NCBI GenBank assembly: GCA_945920185.1 | Contig: CAMEJP010000003.1 | Location: forward strand, 1 to 64,000 | Source: an uncultured Eubacterium sp. | Lineage (GTDB): Bacteria > Bacillota > Clostridia > Lachnospirales > Lachnospiraceae | Length of the DNA: 64,000 nucleotides | Direction: 5' to 3' | Part shown: positions 6,379 to 18,561 of the stretch, piece by piece | How positions within the stretch are numbered: the first letter of the stretch is position 1 | Layout of the letters: each line of letters opens with the position of its first letter | Translations under genes and position numbers: made by a program | The notes under the pieces: model-generated | What the model was told of the DNA's origin: nothing | Databases searched by the model: none | Seen by the model: the letters and a program-made list of their open reading frames with translations, nothing else

Positions 6379-6640
6379 TAGTTAAATACAGCTAAAGCTG
6401 TTATATTAAAAGGCTGTGAATGTGTCAGTAGTCACATTAGCTTGCATATCAGAGAGTGGCAGTCATCGGCTGGAAGCTGCCTATGTATAAGAATGTGATG
6501 AATTTCCCACAGGAGCTGCGTCCTTGAATCAAGTAGGGGACGACGTAGATGTACGTTACACATATGAGTGCCTGCGTTTGCAGGAATTTGGGTGGTACCG
6601 CGGAATTTGACTTCGTCCCTTTTGGGATGAAGTTTTTTTG
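6379..6640 (+). promoter_or_regulatory. T-box riboswitch, tRNA-Phe specific, controlling pheST
   Basis: The leader holds the hallmark T-box sequence TGGGTGGTACCGCGG (6589-6603), which pairs with the uncharged tRNA acceptor end in the antiterminator. The base of stem I is CTGTG (6414-6418) / CACAG (6508-6512). The specifier position reads TTC at 6504-6506 (or TTT one base earlier); both are Phe codons, agreeing with the downstream genes. The competing terminator is ACTTCGTCCC (6610-6619) / GGGATGAAGT (6624-6633) with a T run to 6639. Uncharged tRNA-Phe should switch transcription on. Confidence 0.95.
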
Positions 6641-10416: not shown

Positions 10417-10493
10417 GAAGAAATAAGAGCATTCGGTCAGATATATCAATGACACCGTGATGTTCATAAATTGTGGTTAAAAGGAATACGGTA

Positions 10494-11600
10494 ATGAATG
10501 TACATGACTTTTATTTTGACCTTCCGCAGGAGTTGATTGCACAGGACCCTATTGAAGACAGATCAGCTTCAAGACTGCTTGTGCTTGATAAGAATACAGG
10601 TGAGGTCGAACATAAAATTTTCAGAGATATCCTTAATTATTTAAGACCGGGAGACTGTCTTGTAATCAACAATACAAAGGTTATACCGGCAAGGCTTTAC
10701 GGAGTTAAGGAAGATACAGGAGCAGGCATAGAAGTGCTTTTGCTTAAAAGACGTGAGAATGACATATGGGAAACCTTGGTAAAACCGGGTAAAAAGGCGA
10801 AAAAAGGGACCAGACTCTCATTCGGCGACGGACTTTTAAAGGCGACGGTAGTTGATGTTGTGGACGAGGGCAACAGGCTTATTCACTTTGAGTATCAGGG
10901 CATATTTGAAGAAATTCTTGACAAGCTCGGACAGATGCCTCTTCCTCCTTATATAACGCATGAACTTAAGGATAAGAACAGATACCAGACGGTATATGCC
11001 AAAAATGAGGGCAGTGCCGCAGCACCACCGAGATCTACACTCTTTCCCTACACGACGCTCTTCCGATCTTACGAAGGTTCGGCGGCGGCTCCTACGGCGG
11101 GCTTGCATTTTACCAAAGAACTTTTGGAAGAAATTGAAAAAAAAGGTGTATCCATTGCAAGTGTTACTCTCCATGTAGGTCTTGGAACATTCAGACCCGT
11201 GAAGGTTGAGAATGTGCTCGAGCATCATATGCATTCGGAATATTATAATATAGAGCAGTCTGAAGCAGATAAGATTAATTCAGCCAAAAGAAACGGCGGA
11301 AGAATAATATGCGTGGGAACTACAAGTACGCGTACACTGGAGTCTGTTGCGGACGAAAACGGATATGTAAAGGCGTGCAGCGGCAATACGGATATATTCA
11401 TTTATCCGGGTTATAAGTTTAAAATCGTGGATAATCTTATAACAAATTTTCATTTGCCGGAATCCACGCTGGTTATGCTGGTGTCAGCACTGGCAGGCAG
11501 GGAAAATGTGCTGAATGCCTATCAGAAGGCTATTGAAGAAAAATACAGATTTTTTAGTTTTGGTGATGCTATGTTTATAACAACCAAGGAGGAAAAGTAG
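10494..11600 (+). CDS. queA: S-adenosylmethionine:tRNA ribosyltransferase-isomerase, with sequencing-adapter insertion
   Basis: QueA moves the ribosyl group of S-adenosylmethionine onto preQ1 in tRNA, the penultimate stage of queuosine synthesis. The family features are clear ([17 protein letters not shown] at the start, [39 protein letters not shown]). The ATG at 10494 is chosen because AAGGAA lies about seven bases upstream; an upstream GTG at 10473 does not fit. The frame holds 368 residues, about 22 more than usual. The excess is [15 protein letters not shown] plus a second EGSAAAP, which is translated Illumina adapter and a duplicated motif. The real gene is presumably about 346 residues. 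The sequence between about 11007 and 11094 should not be trusted, and the two halves may not be from one genome. Confidence 0.9.
11024..11069 (+). other. Illumina sequencing adapter embedded in the assembly
   Basis: These 46 bases equal the 3' 46 bases of the 58-base Illumina universal (P5-side) adapter, ending in the familiar CTCTTCCGATCT. On the plus strand they translate to [12 protein letters not shown] and on the minus strand to [15 protein letters not shown], both recognisable contaminant peptides. They are not biological sequence. Confidence 0.99.
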
Positions 11601-11957
11601 ATGGGTGTTGAAAAGAGAAGATCAAGAAGATTAGAACTTAATGTAAAGGTTAAGGTAAGAAAAATAGATACCTATGAATACCTGATCCCTATTAAAGACG
11701 AGTTTGAAGTGGATGTGGTAAATGTATCTAAGGACGGTATTGCTTTTAAGAGTACCGAGAAAATGCTGCTTAATACATTTTATAATGTCGATGTAGTACT
11801 TTGGACAAAGGAGCGATTTGAGGCAGTAATTGAGATTATCAGAATGGAAAGCACTGATACTGATTATACCCTGTACGGTTGCCGCTTTGTGGGAATAAGC
11901 AGTGCTGACCAGTTTAAGATTGACGTATATCAGATTGTCAAAGATATGGAAATGTAA
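11601..11957 (+). CDS. PilZ-domain protein, probable c-di-GMP receptor
   Basis: This 118-residue stand-alone PilZ protein has the two c-di-GMP contact motifs in place: arginines in RRSRR at residues 6-10 (the RxxxR motif) and NVSKDG at 41-46 (the (D/N)xSxxG motif). The beta-barrel strands follow (GIAFKS, YNVDVVLW, YGCRFVGI). It has no output domain, so it would signal by binding a partner. The ATG comes directly after the queA stop with GGAGG within the queA end. It precedes a large membrane protein by 11 bp and heads what looks like a glycan operon, so c-di-GMP control of that locus is a plausible inference. Confidence 0.88.
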   Translation: MGVEKRRSRRLELNVKVKVRKIDTYEYLIPIKDEFEVDVVNVSKDGIAFKSTEKMLLNTFYNVDVVLWTKERFEAVIEIIRMESTDTDYTLYGCRFVGISSADQFKIDVYQIVKDMEM

Positions 11958-11968
11958 GGAAAGATAAT

Positions 11969-13921
11969 ATGCGGATATTGAGGAACTTGGCATTTACAGT
12001 GGCAATTGCACTGATTTTGGAATTGACTGTTTTCAATTTTCGATTCTATGAGAGTCTGTTTTTTAAGAATGTTGATTACAGATATAAATACGAAGACGGT
12101 ATAATTACAGTGTATGACGTGGATGCTGTTGTTAGAAATGTTCACATAGATATAGAGAATAAGAAAAAGGATTCCGCAGGCGTATACAAGGTAAAAATAT
12201 ATGCTTCCGATGAAGGTCATGCAAAGGAATATGGGCTTCCGGAAAGAGAAATATATCTTGATGTGAAAAAGAGTCATTATATTAATCTGGATCTTTCGGG
12301 AAAATGCAAGGGAATGACAATTAAACTGACTGATGCGGAGGGTGCAAAGACAGACCTTAATGAACTTGAGATAAATGTTACAAGACCGTTTGATTTTAAT
12401 GTTTTAAGAGTGTTTATCGTATTATGCGTGACGGGGCTTTTTCTTATATTGAGGAATGCAGGCAGCTTGCGTAACATAAAGGCGGATGCCAAAGATAAGA
12501 GAGCTTTAGCTGTAATTACGCTGTTTGCTACAGTTAATATTATGGCGGCTGTGCTTCTGTCGCAGTTAAATCTTATATTTAATCCTAATATTTTTGAACA
12601 TCATACACAGTATCAGGAGCTTGCAAAGGCTTTTTGTGAGGGTCATTTATATCTTGATGAAAAACCTCCGGCATATCTTGCCGAGATGGATAATCCTTAT
12701 GACTACAGTGCGAGGGAAAGTTATGCTGCAAAAACAGGAAAAGACTATATGTGGGATACGGCATATTTTGATGGAAAATATTATGTGTATTTCGGCGTTG
12801 TGCCTGTAATTTTAGTATATCTGCCGTTTTTGCTGATTACGGGAAAGTCAATAGAAAATTCAGTTGTGGTAGGAATTGCGGCTATATTTTTTGTACTTGC
12901 CGTAATGTGGTTTATATACAGTATGGTTAGGAGGTATTTCAAAAGAACATCCCTTCTTATGTATCTTGCCGTATGCGAGGGCGTTATTGTAAGCTCAGGC
13001 CTTTGGTATATGATGAAGCGGCCTGACTTTTATATAGTTCCTATAATATGCGGAGTTACATTTTCTCTCTTGGGTCTTTCTATGTGGGTATCCTCTGTCC
13101 GAAAGGATGGCAGCATAAATCTTTTTAAAATGTGTACAGCTTCGCTTTGTATGGCACTTGTGGCGGGTTGTCGTCCTCAGCTTGTGCTTGCTTCGGCTGC
13201 AGGTCTTGTGATATTTTGGAAGGTCTGGAAGAAAAAAAGAGAAGTAATATTGTTTTTTTTGCCATATGTGGTAGTCGCGGCGGCAATTCTGTGGTATAAT
13301 TATATGCGCTTTGGTTCGGTGCTTGATTTTGGAGCTTCATATAACCTGACCATTGATGATATGACGCATAGGGGAATATCCCTTAACAGGGTATTTTTAG
13401 GACTGTATGCCTATCTGATTCAGCCGTTGAGCCTTGATGTGAGATTTCCGTATATAAGGCGGAATACTTTGAATACTTATTATCAGGGTGTGACAAGCAT
13501 TGAAAATCCTTATGCGGGCATTTTTGTTGCAAATGTATTTTTAACGCTCAATTTTGCGCTATGGCGTGTGAAAAATTGGTTTAAGGATACACGCATTTTT
13601 GTGCTTACGGTACTGTTTGCCGTGACAGGAATATTGCTTGTGCTTGTGGATACGCAGCTTGGCGGTATATATATGAGATATACAAGCGATTTTTTGTGGG
13701 TATTTGCTCTTGGTGCGGCACTTACGGCTTTGGTTATATATGAACACACATATGATAATGCTAATTATAGCCGCTGGTTCAGAAATATTGTGTTTGTGCT
13801 TTTGTTTGTCACGGTATGTGTTCAGGGCTTTGCCGTATTTACGGACATAGATAATTCGATGAAGTACGGAAATGTTGATTTATATTATACAATTCTTCAT
13901 ACTGTGGAATTTTGGCTTTAA
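11969..13921 (+). CDS. large polytopic membrane protein, GT-C glycosyltransferase-like
   Basis: This 650-residue protein has one N-terminal membrane helix, an extracytoplasmic beta-rich stretch (about 30-140), then about ten hydrophobic helices. A conserved-looking segment between helices (about 205-290) reads HHTQYQELAKAF, then NPYD, then WDTAYFDGKYYVYFGVVPV and PFLLITGK. That layout, with acidic and aromatic residues in a loop followed by many helices, is typical of lipid-linked GT-C/GT39-like sugar transferases, but I cannot name a family. It lies between a PilZ protein and a GT2-GtrA gene, consistent with being the transferase that uses a lipid-linked sugar on the outside of the membrane. 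The role is inferred, not shown. Confidence 0.65.
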   Translation: MRILRNLAFTVAIALILELTVFNFRFYESLFFKNVDYRYKYEDGIITVYDVDAVVRNVHIDIENKKKDSAGVYKVKIYASDEGHAKEYGLPEREIYLDVKKSHYINLDLSGKCKGMTIKLTDAEGAKTDLNELEINVTRPFDFNVLRVFIVLCVTGLFLILRNAGSLRNIKADAKDKRALAVITLFATVNIMAAVLLSQLNLIFNPNIFEHHTQYQELAKAFCEGHLYLDEKPPAYLAEMDNPYDYSARESYAAKTGKDYMWDTAYFDGKYYVYFGVVPVILVYLPFLLITGKSIENSVVVGIAAIFFVLAVMWFIYSMVRRYFKRTSLLMYLAVCEGVIVSSGLWYMMKRPDFYIVPIICGVTFSLLGLSMWVSSVRKDGSINLFKMCTASLCMALVAGCRPQLVLASAAGLVIFWKVWKKKREVILFFLPYVVVAAAILWYNYMRFGSVLDFGASYNLTIDDMTHRGISLNRVFLGLYAYLIQPLSLDVRFPYIRRNTLNTYYQGVTSIENPYAGIFVANVFLTLNFALWRVKNWFKDTRIFVLTVLFAVTGILLVLVDTQLGGIYMRYTSDFLWVFALGAALTALVIYEHTYDNANYSRWFRNIVFVLLFVTVCVQGFAVFTDIDNSMKYGNVDLYYTILHTVEFWL

Positions 13922-13956
13922 AAGCATTTTGAGATATGCTTTGGAATGGAGATATA

Positions 13957-15111
13957 ATGGACAATTTTATATTTAATGCCAGAACAAAAATATATTTCGG
14001 AAAGGGACAGGTGGATAACCTTCCTGATATTTTAAATGAATTTGGAAAAAATGTGCTTCTTGTTTATGGCGGAAGCAGTATAAAGAAAAACGGGATATAC
14101 AATCAGATAACGGAAAGGCTTTCGGAATTTTCGGTTTGTGAGCTTTCGGGTGTAGAACCTAATCCTAAGATAGAATCCGTAAGAGCGGGTGCAGAGCTTG
14201 CAAAGAAGAAAAATGTTGACGTAGTGCTCGCTGTCGGAGGAGGAAGTGTTATCGATTGTGCTAAGTCCATAGCTGCCGGATATTACTATGACGGTGATCC
14301 GTGGGACTTTGTAAAGGATTCTTCCCTTATAGGAGACGTACTTCCGGTTGTAGCGGTTCTTACCATTGCCGCTACCGGATCTGAAATGAACAAAAATTCG
14401 GTTATTTCAAATATGGCTTCTAATGAAAAACTGTGTACGTCAAGCCTTAAATTTATACCGAGAGCAGCAATTCTTGACCCTACATATACATATACCGTCC
14501 CGGCTTATCATACGGCTGCGGGTGTGGCAGATATTATGTCGCATGTGTTTGAAAATTATTTCAAGTCAGATATGACTGCAGGCGTTCAGGACGGATTTTC
14601 AGAGGCTATTCTTAAAACCTGCATAAAGTATGCAAAGAAGGCAATAGATACTCCGGATGATTATGAGGCAAGAGCCAATCTTATGTGGGCAAGCACCATG
14701 GCACTTAACGGACTGTGTGGTGCAGGTAAGAGCGGAAGCTTTTCGTGCCATCCCATGGAGCATGAGCTTAGTGCATTTTATGATATAACTCATGGAGTAG
14801 GACTGGCGATTCTGACGCCGCGTTGGTTTAGATACATACTAAGTGAAAATACGGTGGATTTATTTTACAGATATGCCGTAAATGTATGGGGTATCTGTGA
14901 TGAGGACAAGTTTGCGGCTGCAGATAAAGCGATAGATGCCACTTATGCGTTTTTTGAAGGCCTTGGCATACCGATGAATTTGTCTAAGCTTGGAATAGAC
15001 GGCAACAAATTTGAAATTATGGCAAAAAAGGCATGCGCAAACGGTCTTTCAAATGCTTATGTTCCTCTTAGTGAAAATGATGTTGTCAATATATTTAATA
15101 TGTGCGTATAA
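13957..15111 (+). CDS. iron-containing alcohol dehydrogenase (BdhA/YugJ-like)
   Basis: This 384-residue group III alcohol dehydrogenase has the NAD(P)-binding pattern GGGSVIDCAKSIAAG and metal-binding histidines in HPMEHELSAFYDITHGVG and nearby. The opening NFIFNARTKIYFGKGQ is typical of the butanol-dehydrogenase BdhA/YugJ branch, which reduces small aldehydes with NAD(P)H in the cytoplasm. The ATG at 13957 is preferred (GGA about nine bases upstream, and the family starts here). The gene sits inside a glycan-type operon, 35 bp after the membrane protein and overlapping the next start, so its substrate may be a sugar-derived or polyol carbonyl rather than a fermentation aldehyde. That is open. 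Confidence 0.88.
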   Translation: MDNFIFNARTKIYFGKGQVDNLPDILNEFGKNVLLVYGGSSIKKNGIYNQITERLSEFSVCELSGVEPNPKIESVRAGAELAKKKNVDVVLAVGGGSVIDCAKSIAAGYYYDGDPWDFVKDSSLIGDVLPVVAVLTIAATGSEMNKNSVISNMASNEKLCTSSLKFIPRAAILDPTYTYTVPAYHTAAGVADIMSHVFENYFKSDMTAGVQDGFSEAILKTCIKYAKKAIDTPDDYEARANLMWASTMALNGLCGAGKSGSFSCHPMEHELSAFYDITHGVGLAILTPRWFRYILSENTVDLFYRYAVNVWGICDEDKFAAADKAIDATYAFFEGLGIPMNLSKLGIDGNKFEIMAKKACANGLSNAYVPLSENDVVNIFNMCV

Positions 15112-15122
15112 TGGAGAACTGT

Positions 15123-16199
15123 ATGTTACCTAAGGTTACGATAATTGTGCCGTCGTATAAGCCTGACGACAAGCTTATATCCGTGGTCAGCGGCTTGTGT
15201 GATGCCGGTTTTGATGATATAGTGGTTGTTGATGACGGCGGCAGGGAAGAATACAAGGCTGTGTTTGAGAAAGTCAGTCAATATCCGGGCTGTCATGTGC
15301 TTACACATGAGGTAAACAAAGGAAAAGGAAGAGCCTTAAAGACAGCTTTTGAATATATATCAGCCAACAGAAGCGGTATACTCGGAGTAATTACTGTTGA
15401 CGGTGATAACCAGCATACCGCTGAGGATATAGTAAAATGTGCCAACAGGCTTTCAGAGGCACCGGACAAGGTTGTCATAGGCTGCAGGGATTTTTCCGGA
15501 AAGGATGTGCCTGCAAGAAGCAAGTTTGGCAATAATATGACTAAATTTATATTTCGTGTAGGATGCGGAATAAAGATTTCCGATACCCAGACAGGACTCA
15601 GAGCCATACCGTTTGCAAGACTTCCTGAGTTTGCGGCTATGGAGGGAGAACGTTATGAGTATGAAACAAATATGCTTCTTGAAATGAAGCGTCTTGGAAT
15701 AGAGTTTGTGGAAGTTCCTATAAAGACTGTGTATATAGAAGAAAATGAGTCATCGCATTTTAACCCTGTTAAAGACTCCATAAAAATATATAAGGTTATA
15801 TTTAGGTATATATATAAATTTGTGCTTAGTTCTTTGTCTGCCACGCTGGTAGATATATCCGTGTTTAATGTGGTATTGTTCTTTGCAAAGAAGGTACTGT
15901 CTAAGGACAAAAGCATATTTGCTGCCACTGCGGTTGCAAGAGCAATCTCATCTCTGTTTAATTATACCATGAACAGGAAAGCCGTATTTGCTTCGGATGA
16001 ACCTGTCAGGTCATCCATAGTAAAATATTATGTGCTTGCAGCAGCACAGATTATTCTGTCATCAGGTTTTGTTACATTGATTACAACGTTGTTCAGGATT
16101 AATACACAGATAATGATTACCGTTATAAAGATGATAGTGGACACAACACTTTTCTTTGCAAGCTACAAGCTGCAGAAGAAATGGGTATTTAAAAAATAG
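15123..16199 (+). CDS. GT2 polyprenyl-phosphate glycosyltransferase fused to GtrA-type membrane domain
   Basis: Residues about 1-225 are a DPM1/GtrB-like GT-A domain (VTIIVPSYKPDDKL, VVVDDG, NKGKGRALKTAF, VDGDNQHTAEDI, QTGLRAIP). Residues about 240-359 are a four-helix GtrA domain (FVLSSLSATLVDISVFNVVLFF, RAISSLFNYTMNRKAVF, KKWVFKK). Such a protein makes undecaprenyl-phosphate sugar on the cytoplasmic side, and the GtrA part may flip or anchor it. The same fusion occurs in archaeal dolichol-phosphate mannose synthase. GGAG six bases before the ATG at 15123 fixes the start; an ATG at 15111 overlapping the previous stop (TAATG) is the alternative. Together with the 11969 membrane protein it suggests a three-function glycosylation system. 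Confidence 0.9.
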   Translation: MLPKVTIIVPSYKPDDKLISVVSGLCDAGFDDIVVVDDGGREEYKAVFEKVSQYPGCHVLTHEVNKGKGRALKTAFEYISANRSGILGVITVDGDNQHTAEDIVKCANRLSEAPDKVVIGCRDFSGKDVPARSKFGNNMTKFIFRVGCGIKISDTQTGLRAIPFARLPEFAAMEGERYEYETNMLLEMKRLGIEFVEVPIKTVYIEENESSHFNPVKDSIKIYKVIFRYIYKFVLSSLSATLVDISVFNVVLFFAKKVLSKDKSIFAATAVARAISSLFNYTMNRKAVFASDEPVRSSIVKYYVLAAAQIILSSGFVTLITTLFRINTQIMITVIKMIVDTTLFFASYKLQKKWVFKK

Positions 16200-16222
16200 A
16201 TTTCAGAAAGGAAGGTAAAATA

Positions 16223-17479
16223 ATGAAGGACGATAAAGATCTTTTTATAGACGTGTTTGATAATGATTCGGACAGTGAAAACAATAACGACAGCGGCATA
16301 AAGTACAATTCCTTCGGAGAACTGGAGGAAGATGAGTTTATACAGCTTGAAGATGTGTCAGTCAGTCCTGAAAAGCAGGAGAAGCAGTTGAAGGAGAAGG
16401 TTAAGAATAAGCATTCTTCGGAAGAGAATGACATATCTGAAGAAAAAACCGTAAAGACAAGAAAAACTAAAAAGAAAAACAAGGTATGGAATGTGGCAAG
16501 CAAAATTCTTATAACACTTCTTACCACAGTGATTATTCTTGTTGTATTTCTTTATGTGGTAATGTGGATTCTTGTAAAAGGACCTTCAGAAACTGCTAAG
16601 AATCAGTTCGTGTGTGCGGTTAACGAATCAAGTGCCATGGGATTTCTGGCAAATCTTTATCTCAGTAAGAGTGAGATTAAGCAGATAACATCAAGCAATC
16701 TTTTGCAGGAGCTTGATGACGGCGAAGTATCTGATACTGGTTTGGTTGTGATACCGTCGGGTGGAAATGAGGATGTTCCTGATATACAGCTTCTTGACAT
16801 TAAAGGAAAAACCTACCGTGGTAAGATGATTATCGTAAAAGACCCTTCGAGGGTGTCTGTAGGAACAATTGAAACCTTTTATGAAGGTCCGGGAAAGGTT
16901 GTTTCGGATATATGTGAAAGATACGGAGCAATAGCAGGTATCAACGGCGGTGAGTTTGTCGATATGGGAAGTTACAGCTATACCGCCATGCCTATCGGAT
17001 GTGTTATATCTCAAGGCGAGCATATCTTTGGTGACTTGTACAGCACTTACAATATCACGGGAATCACTAAAGAAAATAAGCTGGTTGTAGGCAAGATGAC
17101 CGTAAAGGAAGCCCTTGAAATGGGCGTCAGGGATGCAGTTCATACCGTACATACAACAGGTCCTGTACTTATATTTAACGGTGAGCCTATGACTGTGCCT
17201 GATACAACCGTATACGGAGGAGGTACAAATCCTCGTACTGCAATCGGACAGAGAGCGGACGGTGCCATTCTTCTTCTTGTCGTAGACGGAAGACAGGGCA
17301 ACAGTATAGGAGCAACTTTTGAGGATCTTATAGACATTATGGCTAAGTACGGAGCGGTAAATGCCAGCGCCATGGACGGCGGAACATCTACACAGATGGT
17401 ATACGAGGGCGAGGTTGTCAACAGCCCATACTCTCCGGCAGGACCGAGAAAATGTCCTACAGCTTGGATTGTAAAGTAG
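16223..17479 (+). CDS. membrane-anchored phosphodiester glycosidase (NAGPA domain)
   Basis: This 418-residue protein has an acidic then lysine-rich cytoplasmic head (about 1-90), one membrane helix (about 92-115) and an outside NAGPA domain (about 215-418). The motifs are GINGGEFVD, TGPVLIFNG, NPRTAIGQRADGA, VVDGRQG and SAMDGGTST. The family includes the mammalian uncovering enzyme that cleaves GlcNAc-1-phosphodiesters; bacterial members have few tested substrates. It is a full-length paralogue of the fragment at 2-424. It follows the GT2-GtrA gene by 23 bp and is followed by its partner gene, so it probably acts on the glycan made by this operon. AAAGGAAGG precedes the ATG. Confidence 0.9.
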   Translation: MKDDKDLFIDVFDNDSDSENNNDSGIKYNSFGELEEDEFIQLEDVSVSPEKQEKQLKEKVKNKHSSEENDISEEKTVKTRKTKKKNKVWNVASKILITLLTTVIILVVFLYVVMWILVKGPSETAKNQFVCAVNESSAMGFLANLYLSKSEIKQITSSNLLQELDDGEVSDTGLVVIPSGGNEDVPDIQLLDIKGKTYRGKMIIVKDPSRVSVGTIETFYEGPGKVVSDICERYGAIAGINGGEFVDMGSYSYTAMPIGCVISQGEHIFGDLYSTYNITGITKENKLVVGKMTVKEALEMGVRDAVHTVHTTGPVLIFNGEPMTVPDTTVYGGGTNPRTAIGQRADGAILLLVVDGRQGNSIGATFEDLIDIMAKYGAVNASAMDGGTSTQMVYEGEVVNSPYSPAGPRKCPTAWIVK

Positions 17480-17490
17480 GAGGACTTGTG

Positions 17491-18561
17491 ATGAAAAAGA
17501 AAAAAATATCTAAATTTAAAATGGGAATTATGATATATGCAGGCGTTTCGGTGCTGCTTATAGCTATATTTGCCGTTATTTTCTGGAATTTTATTGCTGA
17601 TTATGAGAAGTCTATGCCTCATCATGGCGTAGATAAGGTTCTTGCTGATATGAATGCTTCAGAATGGGATAAATATTTTGAAACCAAAACACAGGATGGA
17701 GCTTTTGAAAGTACTGACAAGATTAAGGAATATATCTTGGAAAAGTATGACGGCAAGAATATAACCAGTAAAAAGGCTAAGAGCTATACTGCTTCAAAGC
17801 CGGTGTTTGAACTTCTTGCCGATGGAAAGGCATTTGCAAGCGTTACGCTTAAGAAGACGGGAAAGAACAGAAGTAATTTCTCCGAGTGGGGATACGACTC
17901 CATATCTTATGAAGATTATATAAAATACGAGAAATATACGATTGAAGCTCCAAGTACTACCAAAGTAAGCGTAAACGGCGTGGAACTCTCGGATGAATAT
18001 AAGAAGGAAGAGAAGGAAATAGAAAGGCTGAGTCAGGCAGCTCTCTACACAACGGGACTTCCTAAAATGGCAGTGTACGAGGTAGAGCTGATAAATGAGC
18101 CGGATGTAACTGCCGTTGACTCAAAGGGTAATACGGTAGAAGCCGTAAAGGACAATAATACTTACACTTACACTATCGGCTTTGCCCCAAGCGATGACGT
18201 AGAGGCAGAGCATAAGGAATATGCACTTAAAGTATCAAGTGTATATGTAAAGAATTTCATCAATGTAAAGGAAGGCATATTGAAATATATTATGCCTGAT
18301 TCAGAACTTCGTGAGGCCGTGAGACTGTCGGATACATATTTCTATCCGGTAGAATATATGGCAGGATATGAGTTTTTGAAGCAGGAAGTAAAGAACTTCG
18401 TATATTACAGCGAAGACTGTTTTAGCTGTGATGTATATTACGAGGTAAACGTACTTTTCAGAGGCTGGTCTATTTCAAGTAAAGTCGAGGTCAGTGATAT
18501 CAATTATGTATTCGTCAGAAAGGACGGAACATGGTATCTTACAAGCCTTAGCTATAATTAA
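17491..18561 (+). CDS. membrane-anchored partner protein of the NAGPA enzyme, unknown family (paralogue of 480-1589)
   Basis: The product has 356 residues from the ATG at 17491, which has AGGAGG about seven bases upstream. An earlier in-frame ATG lies inside the previous gene and is less likely. A lysine-rich N-terminus and one membrane helix (about 10-32) are followed by an outside region rich in charged residues. It matches the 480-1589 product in the central VNGV segment and in the closing FVRKDGTWYLTSL pattern. I see no enzyme motif. The gene ends the operon; a terminator follows within 20 bp. The repeated pairing with NAGPA genes is the main clue to function. Confidence 0.78.
   Translation: MKKKKISKFKMGIMIYAGVSVLLIAIFAVIFWNFIADYEKSMPHHGVDKVLADMNASEWDKYFETKTQDGAFESTDKIKEYILEKYDGKNITSKKAKSYTASKPVFELLADGKAFASVTLKKTGKNRSNFSEWGYDSISYEDYIKYEKYTIEAPSTTKVSVNGVELSDEYKKEEKEIERLSQAALYTTGLPKMAVYEVELINEPDVTAVDSKGNTVEAVKDNNTYTYTIGFAPSDDVEAEHKEYALKVSSVYVKNFINVKEGILKYIMPDSELREAVRLSDTYFYPVEYMAGYEFLKQEVKNFVYYSEDCFSCDVYYEVNVLFRGWSISSKVEVSDINYVFVRKDGTWYLTSLSYN

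Follow-up and report, generated by a model that had tools for sequence, protein, structure and literature searches.

Multi-component transmembrane glycosylation of the CsbB/GtcA/YfhO type, described in Gram-positive bacteria, employs a GT-A type polyprenyl-phosphate-sugar synthase and a GtrA-type flippase in an envelope setting (PMC8035078, available sections). In the PpgS pathway of mycobacteria and corynebacteria, a PpgS-type glycosyltransferase of family 2 (GT2) takes part in the addition of an amino sugar, galactosamine, to a wall glycan (PMC9671496, available sections), and UshA (YqjL) of Bacillus subtilis, a cytoplasmic alpha-beta hydrolase, is proposed to release the carrier lipid from sugars linked to undecaprenyl phosphate (UndP) (PMC11898649, available sections). 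Here we analyzed a stretch of 64,000 nucleotides (hereafter, the window; positions 1 to 64,000 of contig CAMEJP010000003.1) from an uncultured Eubacterium sp. of the Lachnospiraceae, in which a GT2-GtrA fusion protein, a membrane-anchored NAGPA protein, and a membrane-anchored NTF2-like partner of the latter are encoded side by side. The locus shares the synthase, the flippase, and the envelope setting with the CsbB/GtcA/YfhO type, and its NAGPA domain belongs to the same family as the mammalian uncovering enzyme and the bacterial NAGPA/DUF2233 proteins. We propose that these three genes, and not the six tightly spaced genes among which they lie, make up the functional unit; most likely, GT2-GtrA supplies flipped polyprenyl-phosphate-N-acetylhexosamine (HexNAc) to envelope glycans, and the role of NAGPA is to cut or move a sugar-1-phosphodiester of the pathway. 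We give this explanation as a whole a probability of about 0.55.

The first core gene (15111 to 16199, + strand) encodes a single chain in which an N-terminal GT2 domain (PF00535, 60.4 bits) is followed by a C-terminal GtrA/DPMS transmembrane domain at about 15816 to 16190 (PF04138, 43.3 bits; cut-off 26.1). Both domains exceed their Pfam cut-offs, which confirms the fusion named in an earlier sequence-only reading of this DNA. The best NCBIfam models are AglJ (81.6 bits) and PpgS (68.4 bits), both scoring far below cut-off (370 for PpgS). The GT2 domain appears to be a polyprenyl-phosphate sugar synthase resembling the DPM, AglJ, and PpgS enzymes, and the GtrA domain a putative flippase; judged by its domain architecture, the protein would combine the GT-A type synthase and the GtrA-type flippase of a multi-component system. 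The sequence-only reading was also right in its general idea of lipid-carrier glycosylation. The available sections of a paper on Pyrococcus DPM synthase (PMC5526996) contain no mention of GtrA; therefore, the precedent for the fused architecture rests on the name of the Pfam model.

The second core gene (16223 to 17479, + strand) encodes NAGPA (PF09992, 142.5 bits; cut-off 25), with a transmembrane segment at approximately residues 95 to 113 according to hydropathy and a catalytic domain encoded at about 16922 to 17473, which is predicted by the positive-inside rule to lie outside. The protein matches the profile of the solved mammalian NAGPA with E values of 7.7e-13 to 1.4e-12, and the NGG, RTAxG, DG, and LDGGxS stretches of the two align; a family domain well over cut-off and these conserved stretches support its assignment as a putative phosphodiester glycosidase. 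The third core gene (17491 to 18561, + strand; an alternative upstream start is possible at 17452) encodes the partner, for which no Pfam family scores over cut-off. An AlphaFold2 model built from 40 sequences (predicted local distance difference test [pLDDT] value of 92.6) begins with one long N-terminal helix, after which a beta region separates two regions of helix plus sheet. NTF2-like proteins, an S1C-NTF2 bi-domain and a conjugation protein among them, are the best Foldseek matches of this model, although their overall TM-scores are low; the model makes a good case for the NTF2-like domain, and the overall arrangement appears to be the partner's own. One transmembrane helix is predicted, with the NTF2-like and beta domains placed outside. 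Weak Pfam matches of the partner to VWD and HRG, and of one relative to TcaA_5th, were set aside.

The linkage of these genes recurs in other genomes. Relatives of the partner were found in 12 of 195 kin genomes; in the 13 regions around partner relatives, the partner adjoins NAGPA without exception (13/13), and GT2-GtrA precedes the pair in 6, as a split gene in one of them (L085). A NAGPA search of named genomes, from which the best 80 of 573 loci were kept, placed the partner directly after NAGPA in 74 of these 80 loci, which is not a population rate because the alignment used for fetching them (A3) was built from NAGPA genes already adjoining a partner and only the highest-ranking loci were kept; one locus with no callable NAGPA gene (L118) and two ending within 150 bases of the gene were counted as misses. 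Fused GT2-GtrA directly precedes NAGPA in 20 of the same best 80 loci. Clustering of neighbors over 92 loci, without a prior target, recovered the partner in 86 loci (82 times at position +1), GT2-GtrA in 28 (26 times at -1), and PIG-L in 11 (7 times at -2); no other family kept a set position in more than 7 of the 92 loci. The NAGPA pair of the sequence-only reading is likewise upheld. Of six PIG-L proteins scanned, four scored above the Pfam cut-off (28.2 bits) and two below it (27.5 and 23.4 bits); the start of the PIG-L neighbor is signal-like, and the protein looks secreted. PAP2 genes and MurJ/PST-type flippase genes likewise recur near the core, and in Lachnospira multipara ATCC 19207 (L129 and L305) the fused GT2-GtrA, NAGPA, partner, and PST-type flippase genes stand in succession.

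Linkage to GT2-GtrA is dispersed across a tree built from 97 NAGPA sequences: the 29 linked rows need 15 changes, compared with 25 for shuffled labels, and at least 11 of the 15 are forced by well-supported branches. GT2-GtrA-linked NAGPA reaches as far as Synergistota (two Synergistaceae in the tree); the closest named relatives of the window NAGPA are mostly Lachnospiraceae, and the source genome (a 2.09-Mb assembly in 82 contigs) is the sole member of its genus among the genomes compared. The association also holds at the genome level: among 291 genomes of the class, GT2-GtrA (E values up to 1e-40) occurs in 21 of 23 that carry the partner and in 28 of 268 that lack it, two partner genomes having been counted as misses at this threshold (G509, with none, and G540, with a contig-end fragment adjoining the partner). 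Where NAGPA lacks an adjoining GT2-GtrA, all 30 genomes checked carry GT2-GtrA elsewhere, including three already linked via another locus (G278, G279, and G285) and one with only a contig-end piece (G583); 16 of these 30 places were fetched, and NAGPA adjoins in 10 of them (L303 to L309 and L313 to L315). Of the 30 best loci in a search that started from GT2-GtrA, that of the window included, 9 have NAGPA or the partner adjoining; the remaining loci have other neighbors, and therefore the synthase family is not confined to this core.

The NAGPA family also occurs in other settings. The window itself holds a second NAGPA gene (2 to 424, + strand), of which only the C-terminal part is left by the contig start, together with its own partner gene (480 to 1589, + strand; match of the partner profile A4 at G000:C3:486-1577, E value of 2.5e-48). 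This pair lies 15 kb upstream of the first, its NAGPA branches elsewhere in the NAGPA tree, and no GT2-GtrA is in view beside it. Clostridium-type NAGPA genes (L242 to L253) mostly lie beside a gene for a protein of about 345 residues with a hydrophobic start and no match to the partner profile; it may represent another family of partners. A protein of about 1,100 residues follows the NAGPA pair in seven loci of Oscillospiraceae and their kin (L132, L145, L146, L149, L152, L157, and L166).

In the mechanism that we favor, the GT2 domain would charge polyprenyl phosphate with a sugar, most probably an N-acetylhexosamine, which the fused GtrA domain would then carry in lipid-linked form to the outer face. 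The domains, the order of the genes, their repeated linkage, and their co-occurrence across genomes are observed; the direction of flipping is inferred, as are the sugar, the NAGPA substrate, and the role of the partner. The sugar would then join an envelope glycan, here perhaps via the neighboring GT-C-like protein or a YfhO-type enzyme encoded elsewhere (the genome has two YfhO genes), and NAGPA, anchored in the membrane and tethered or assisted by its partner, would cleave or transfer a sugar-1-phosphodiester that arises in the pathway or is supplied by it. HexNAc is suggested because of three weak pointers, namely, the PpgS-like score, the substrate of mammalian NAGPA, and the PIG-L deacetylase found in some relatives, which points to an N-acetylated sugar of this kind.

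Several points weigh against this mechanism. The Fisher p value for the co-occurrence of partner and GT2-GtrA (1.6e-16) is uncorrected for kinship, and the 28 genomes of the class sample that have GT2-GtrA and no partner indicate other uses of the synthase. Among 10 sampled genomes of the window's own family, GT2-GtrA is present in 8 and the partner in 2, and of 30 NAGPA loci sampled by rank of Pfam score, the window's own included, only 7 have the partner. In addition, the expected product of such GT2 enzymes is a beta-linked lipid phosphate sugar, and mammalian NAGPA acts on alpha-linked N-acetylglucosamine (GlcNAc)-1-phosphodiesters; by this analogy, the unchanged lipid intermediate is probably not the NAGPA substrate, unless the specificity of the bacterial protein differs.

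GT-C and GT-C-like families (A1, to which the 650-residue protein of the window belongs, YfhO, and PMT_2) occur near NAGPA in only 1 of the 92 loci (L106); therefore, either the GT-C enzyme is encoded elsewhere or NAGPA performs the outside step. In the latter case, NAGPA would replace GT-C as a transglycosidase working directly on flipped polyprenyl-phosphate-HexNAc, with the envelope acceptor brought by the NTF2-like partner, which would amount to transfer of a sugar outside the cytoplasm, from a lipid monophosphate donor and with no GT-C fold involved. We consider such direct transfer improbable because a beta-linked lipid sugar does not match the alpha linkage cleaved by mammalian NAGPA. 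As a separate observation, locus L310/L106 brings together PIG-L, GT2-GtrA, a PMT_2-type GT-C, and NAGPA on two strands.

NAGPA could instead act on the wall. The bond cleaved by the mammalian enzyme, GlcNAc-alpha-1-P-6-Man, resembles the wall linkage GlcNAc-1-P-6-MurNAc, and NAGPA may trim a wall polymer at alpha-GlcNAc-1-phosphate linkages, for instance, at the joint of secondary wall polymer and peptidoglycan, while GT2-GtrA decorates the same polymer; the genes would then be linked through a shared polymer and not through a shared lipid intermediate. The NAGPA pairs without an adjoining GT2-GtrA, which account for most of the 80 loci, fit a remodeling enzyme of this type, and MurJ/PST-type flippase genes are found two genes on in 5 of the 92 loci. 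However, the repeated coupling to one GT2-GtrA subfamily exceeds what a merely shared polymer would need, and we hold wall trimming to be a possible, clearly less probable, alternative to the three-gene glycosylation pathway.

Recovery of the carrier lipid is another conceivable task, in which NAGPA would hydrolyze flipped but unused polyprenyl-phosphate-sugar and return the carrier, as an outside counterpart of the cytoplasmic UshA. Polyprenyl-phosphate sugars are sugar-1-phosphodiesters. The proposal that UshA frees carrier lipid from UndP-linked sugars implies that such a need exists (PMC11898649, available sections); PAP2 genes, moreover, lie beside the core in 4 of the 92 loci. This function would, however, leave the conserved NTF2-like partner unexplained, NAGPA pairs without an adjoining GT2-GtrA are common, and the anomeric mismatch with the mammalian enzyme applies here as well, all of which makes clean-up an unlikely role.

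The core lies within a run of six open reading frames (ORFs), all on the + strand and separated by gaps of 11, 14, -1, 23, and 11 bases, at the place and with the tight spacing described in the sequence-only reading (no gap exceeds 23 bases); the start of GT2-GtrA overlaps the stop of the preceding dehydrogenase gene (TAATG). Upstream of the core are genes for a single-domain PilZ protein (11601 to 11957, + strand; PF07238, 27.5 bits; cut-off 22.5), a multi-pass GT-C-like membrane protein of 650 residues (11969 to 13921, + strand), and an iron-containing alcohol dehydrogenase (13936 to 15111, + strand; PF00465, 161.9 bits; PF25137, 124.8 bits). Promoter-like sites across the genes are no more frequent than in shuffled sequence; terminator-like sites exceed the shuffles in number, yet mark no clear break between genes. 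The sequence-only reading put forward all six genes as a candidate glycosylation operon linked to cyclic di-GMP (c-di-GMP); in such an operon, PilZ would sense c-di-GMP and gate a GT-C transferase fed by GT2-GtrA. The shared strand and close spacing are in keeping with this, and cotranscription is possible in this single genome. RxxxR and (D/N)xSxxG are the c-di-GMP-binding motifs of PilZ domains; the RRSRR and NVSKDG stretches retained in the translated PilZ protein fit them, so the protein may well bind the nucleotide.

The genomic distribution of the PilZ gene argues otherwise. A protein search matched PilZ relatives in 77 of 200 genomes of the family, and in 20 of 30 fetched loci, that of the window included, queA adjoins the PilZ gene, often with pheT farther upstream, as in the window; the flanks of these loci extended to only about 1.5 kb. 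Among the loci without an adjoining queA, L227 has pheT directly upstream, and the flank of L238 contains a GT2-like ORF fragment. No match to PilZ, dehydrogenase, GtrA, or NAGPA was found in 26 regions, each spanning 10 to 19 kb, in which relatives of the GT-C-like protein lie, and 93 NAGPA regions (the 13 around partner relatives and the 80 from the named-genome search) contain no PilZ, dehydrogenase, queA, or member of the window's GT-C-like family. A PilZ domain is encoded somewhere in 19 of 28 genomes that bear the core or close kin of it; the other 9 gave no match. Because queA lies beside PilZ and no PilZ occurs in the NAGPA or GT-C regions, the PilZ gene is excluded from the glycan unit; it is a bystander from the pheT-queA-PilZ neighborhood. 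The co-conservation suggested as a check in the sequence-only reading is therefore absent, as the PilZ gene is not kept with the remaining genes; the c-di-GMP link finds no support, and neither does a single six-gene system, the GT-C-like and dehydrogenase genes being only local neighbors. We judge the regulated six-gene operon very unlikely, the least probable of the alternatives weighed here.

The start of the PilZ gene immediately follows the stop of queA (10473 to 11600), at the very next base. An exact copy of a common Illumina sequencing adapter lies in frame within the queA ORF at 11037 to 11069, flanked by two EGSAAAP stretches that use different codons; the adapter is an assembly artifact and possibly marks a join of two sources, and base composition to its left and right is alike and gives no sign of a chimera. 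Farther upstream, a T-box leader (6407 to 6623; Rfam RF00230, 127 bits) precedes pheS and pheT.

The 650-residue protein has 11 predicted transmembrane segments; an N-terminal stretch lies between the first and the second of them. No Pfam family, PF09586 included, scores over cut-off, Protein Data Bank sequence searches with the protein and its family gave no real match, and a model predicted from the single sequence reached a pLDDT value of only 42. Its family occurs in 22 of 200 genomes of the family Lachnospiraceae, and an alignment of 24 members (A1) matched PMT_2 at 96% (E value of 3e-9) and YfhO at 82% in hhalign, with controls of 87% for YfhO against PMT_2 and 0.6% for MurJ/PST; an earlier run (-glob 0) gave 98.4% for PMT_2 and 96.7% for YfhO, and the later run with controls was relied on. 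These distant profile matches support the GT-C-like label of the sequence-only reading and make kinship with GT-C enzymes likely at the profile level. In genome G004, relatives of the protein stand in a row with YfhO genes, and a CsbB-like GT2 with two C-terminal membrane segments directly adjoins such relatives in 2 of the 26 regions (L036 and L038); in neither the 26 GT-C regions nor the 93 NAGPA regions do they adjoin NAGPA, GtrA, or the dehydrogenase. The 650-residue protein is a possible GT-C partner of the core in this genome only.

Compared with the described systems, the three-gene core is best regarded as a variant of multi-component transmembrane glycosylation with incomplete membership, because the conserved unit includes no GT-C. 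Unlike in the CsbB/GtcA/YfhO type, the synthase and the flippase are fused, and the set is extended by a putative phosphodiester glycosidase and its NTF2-like partner; the genes are not orthologs of CsbB, GtcA, and YfhO, given the fusion of GT2 with GtrA, AglJ and PpgS as best models, and a 650-residue protein that falls outside PF09586. The word phosphodiester is absent from the text of the review on these systems (PMC8035078). In the literature searched, with subscription papers and preprints outside its scope, we found neither a name for the combination of GT2-GtrA, NAGPA, and partner nor a stated role for membrane-anchored bacterial NAGPA proteins; the parts are known singly.

The PpgS pathway is similar in its PpgS-type GT2, and PIG-L beside some cores suggests de-N-acetylation there too, whereas the window protein scores 68.4 bits, against the cut-off of 370, a different acceptor is expected, and no NAGPA is named in the available sections of PMC9671496. 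NAGPA also differs from UshA in belonging to another fold family and in being predicted outside. A large group of NAGPA proteins tied to one lipid-sugar synthase would acquire a concrete substrate class. If this link is true, multi-component glycosylation in Clostridia gains a step of cutting or transfer, joined in some lineages by an outside deacetylase; this would bear on carrier-lipid recovery and on the dressing of the wall by gut bacteria. In contrast to mammalian NAGPA, the window protein is bacterial, membrane anchored, and genetically tied to a putative lipid-sugar synthase and to a partner of its own.

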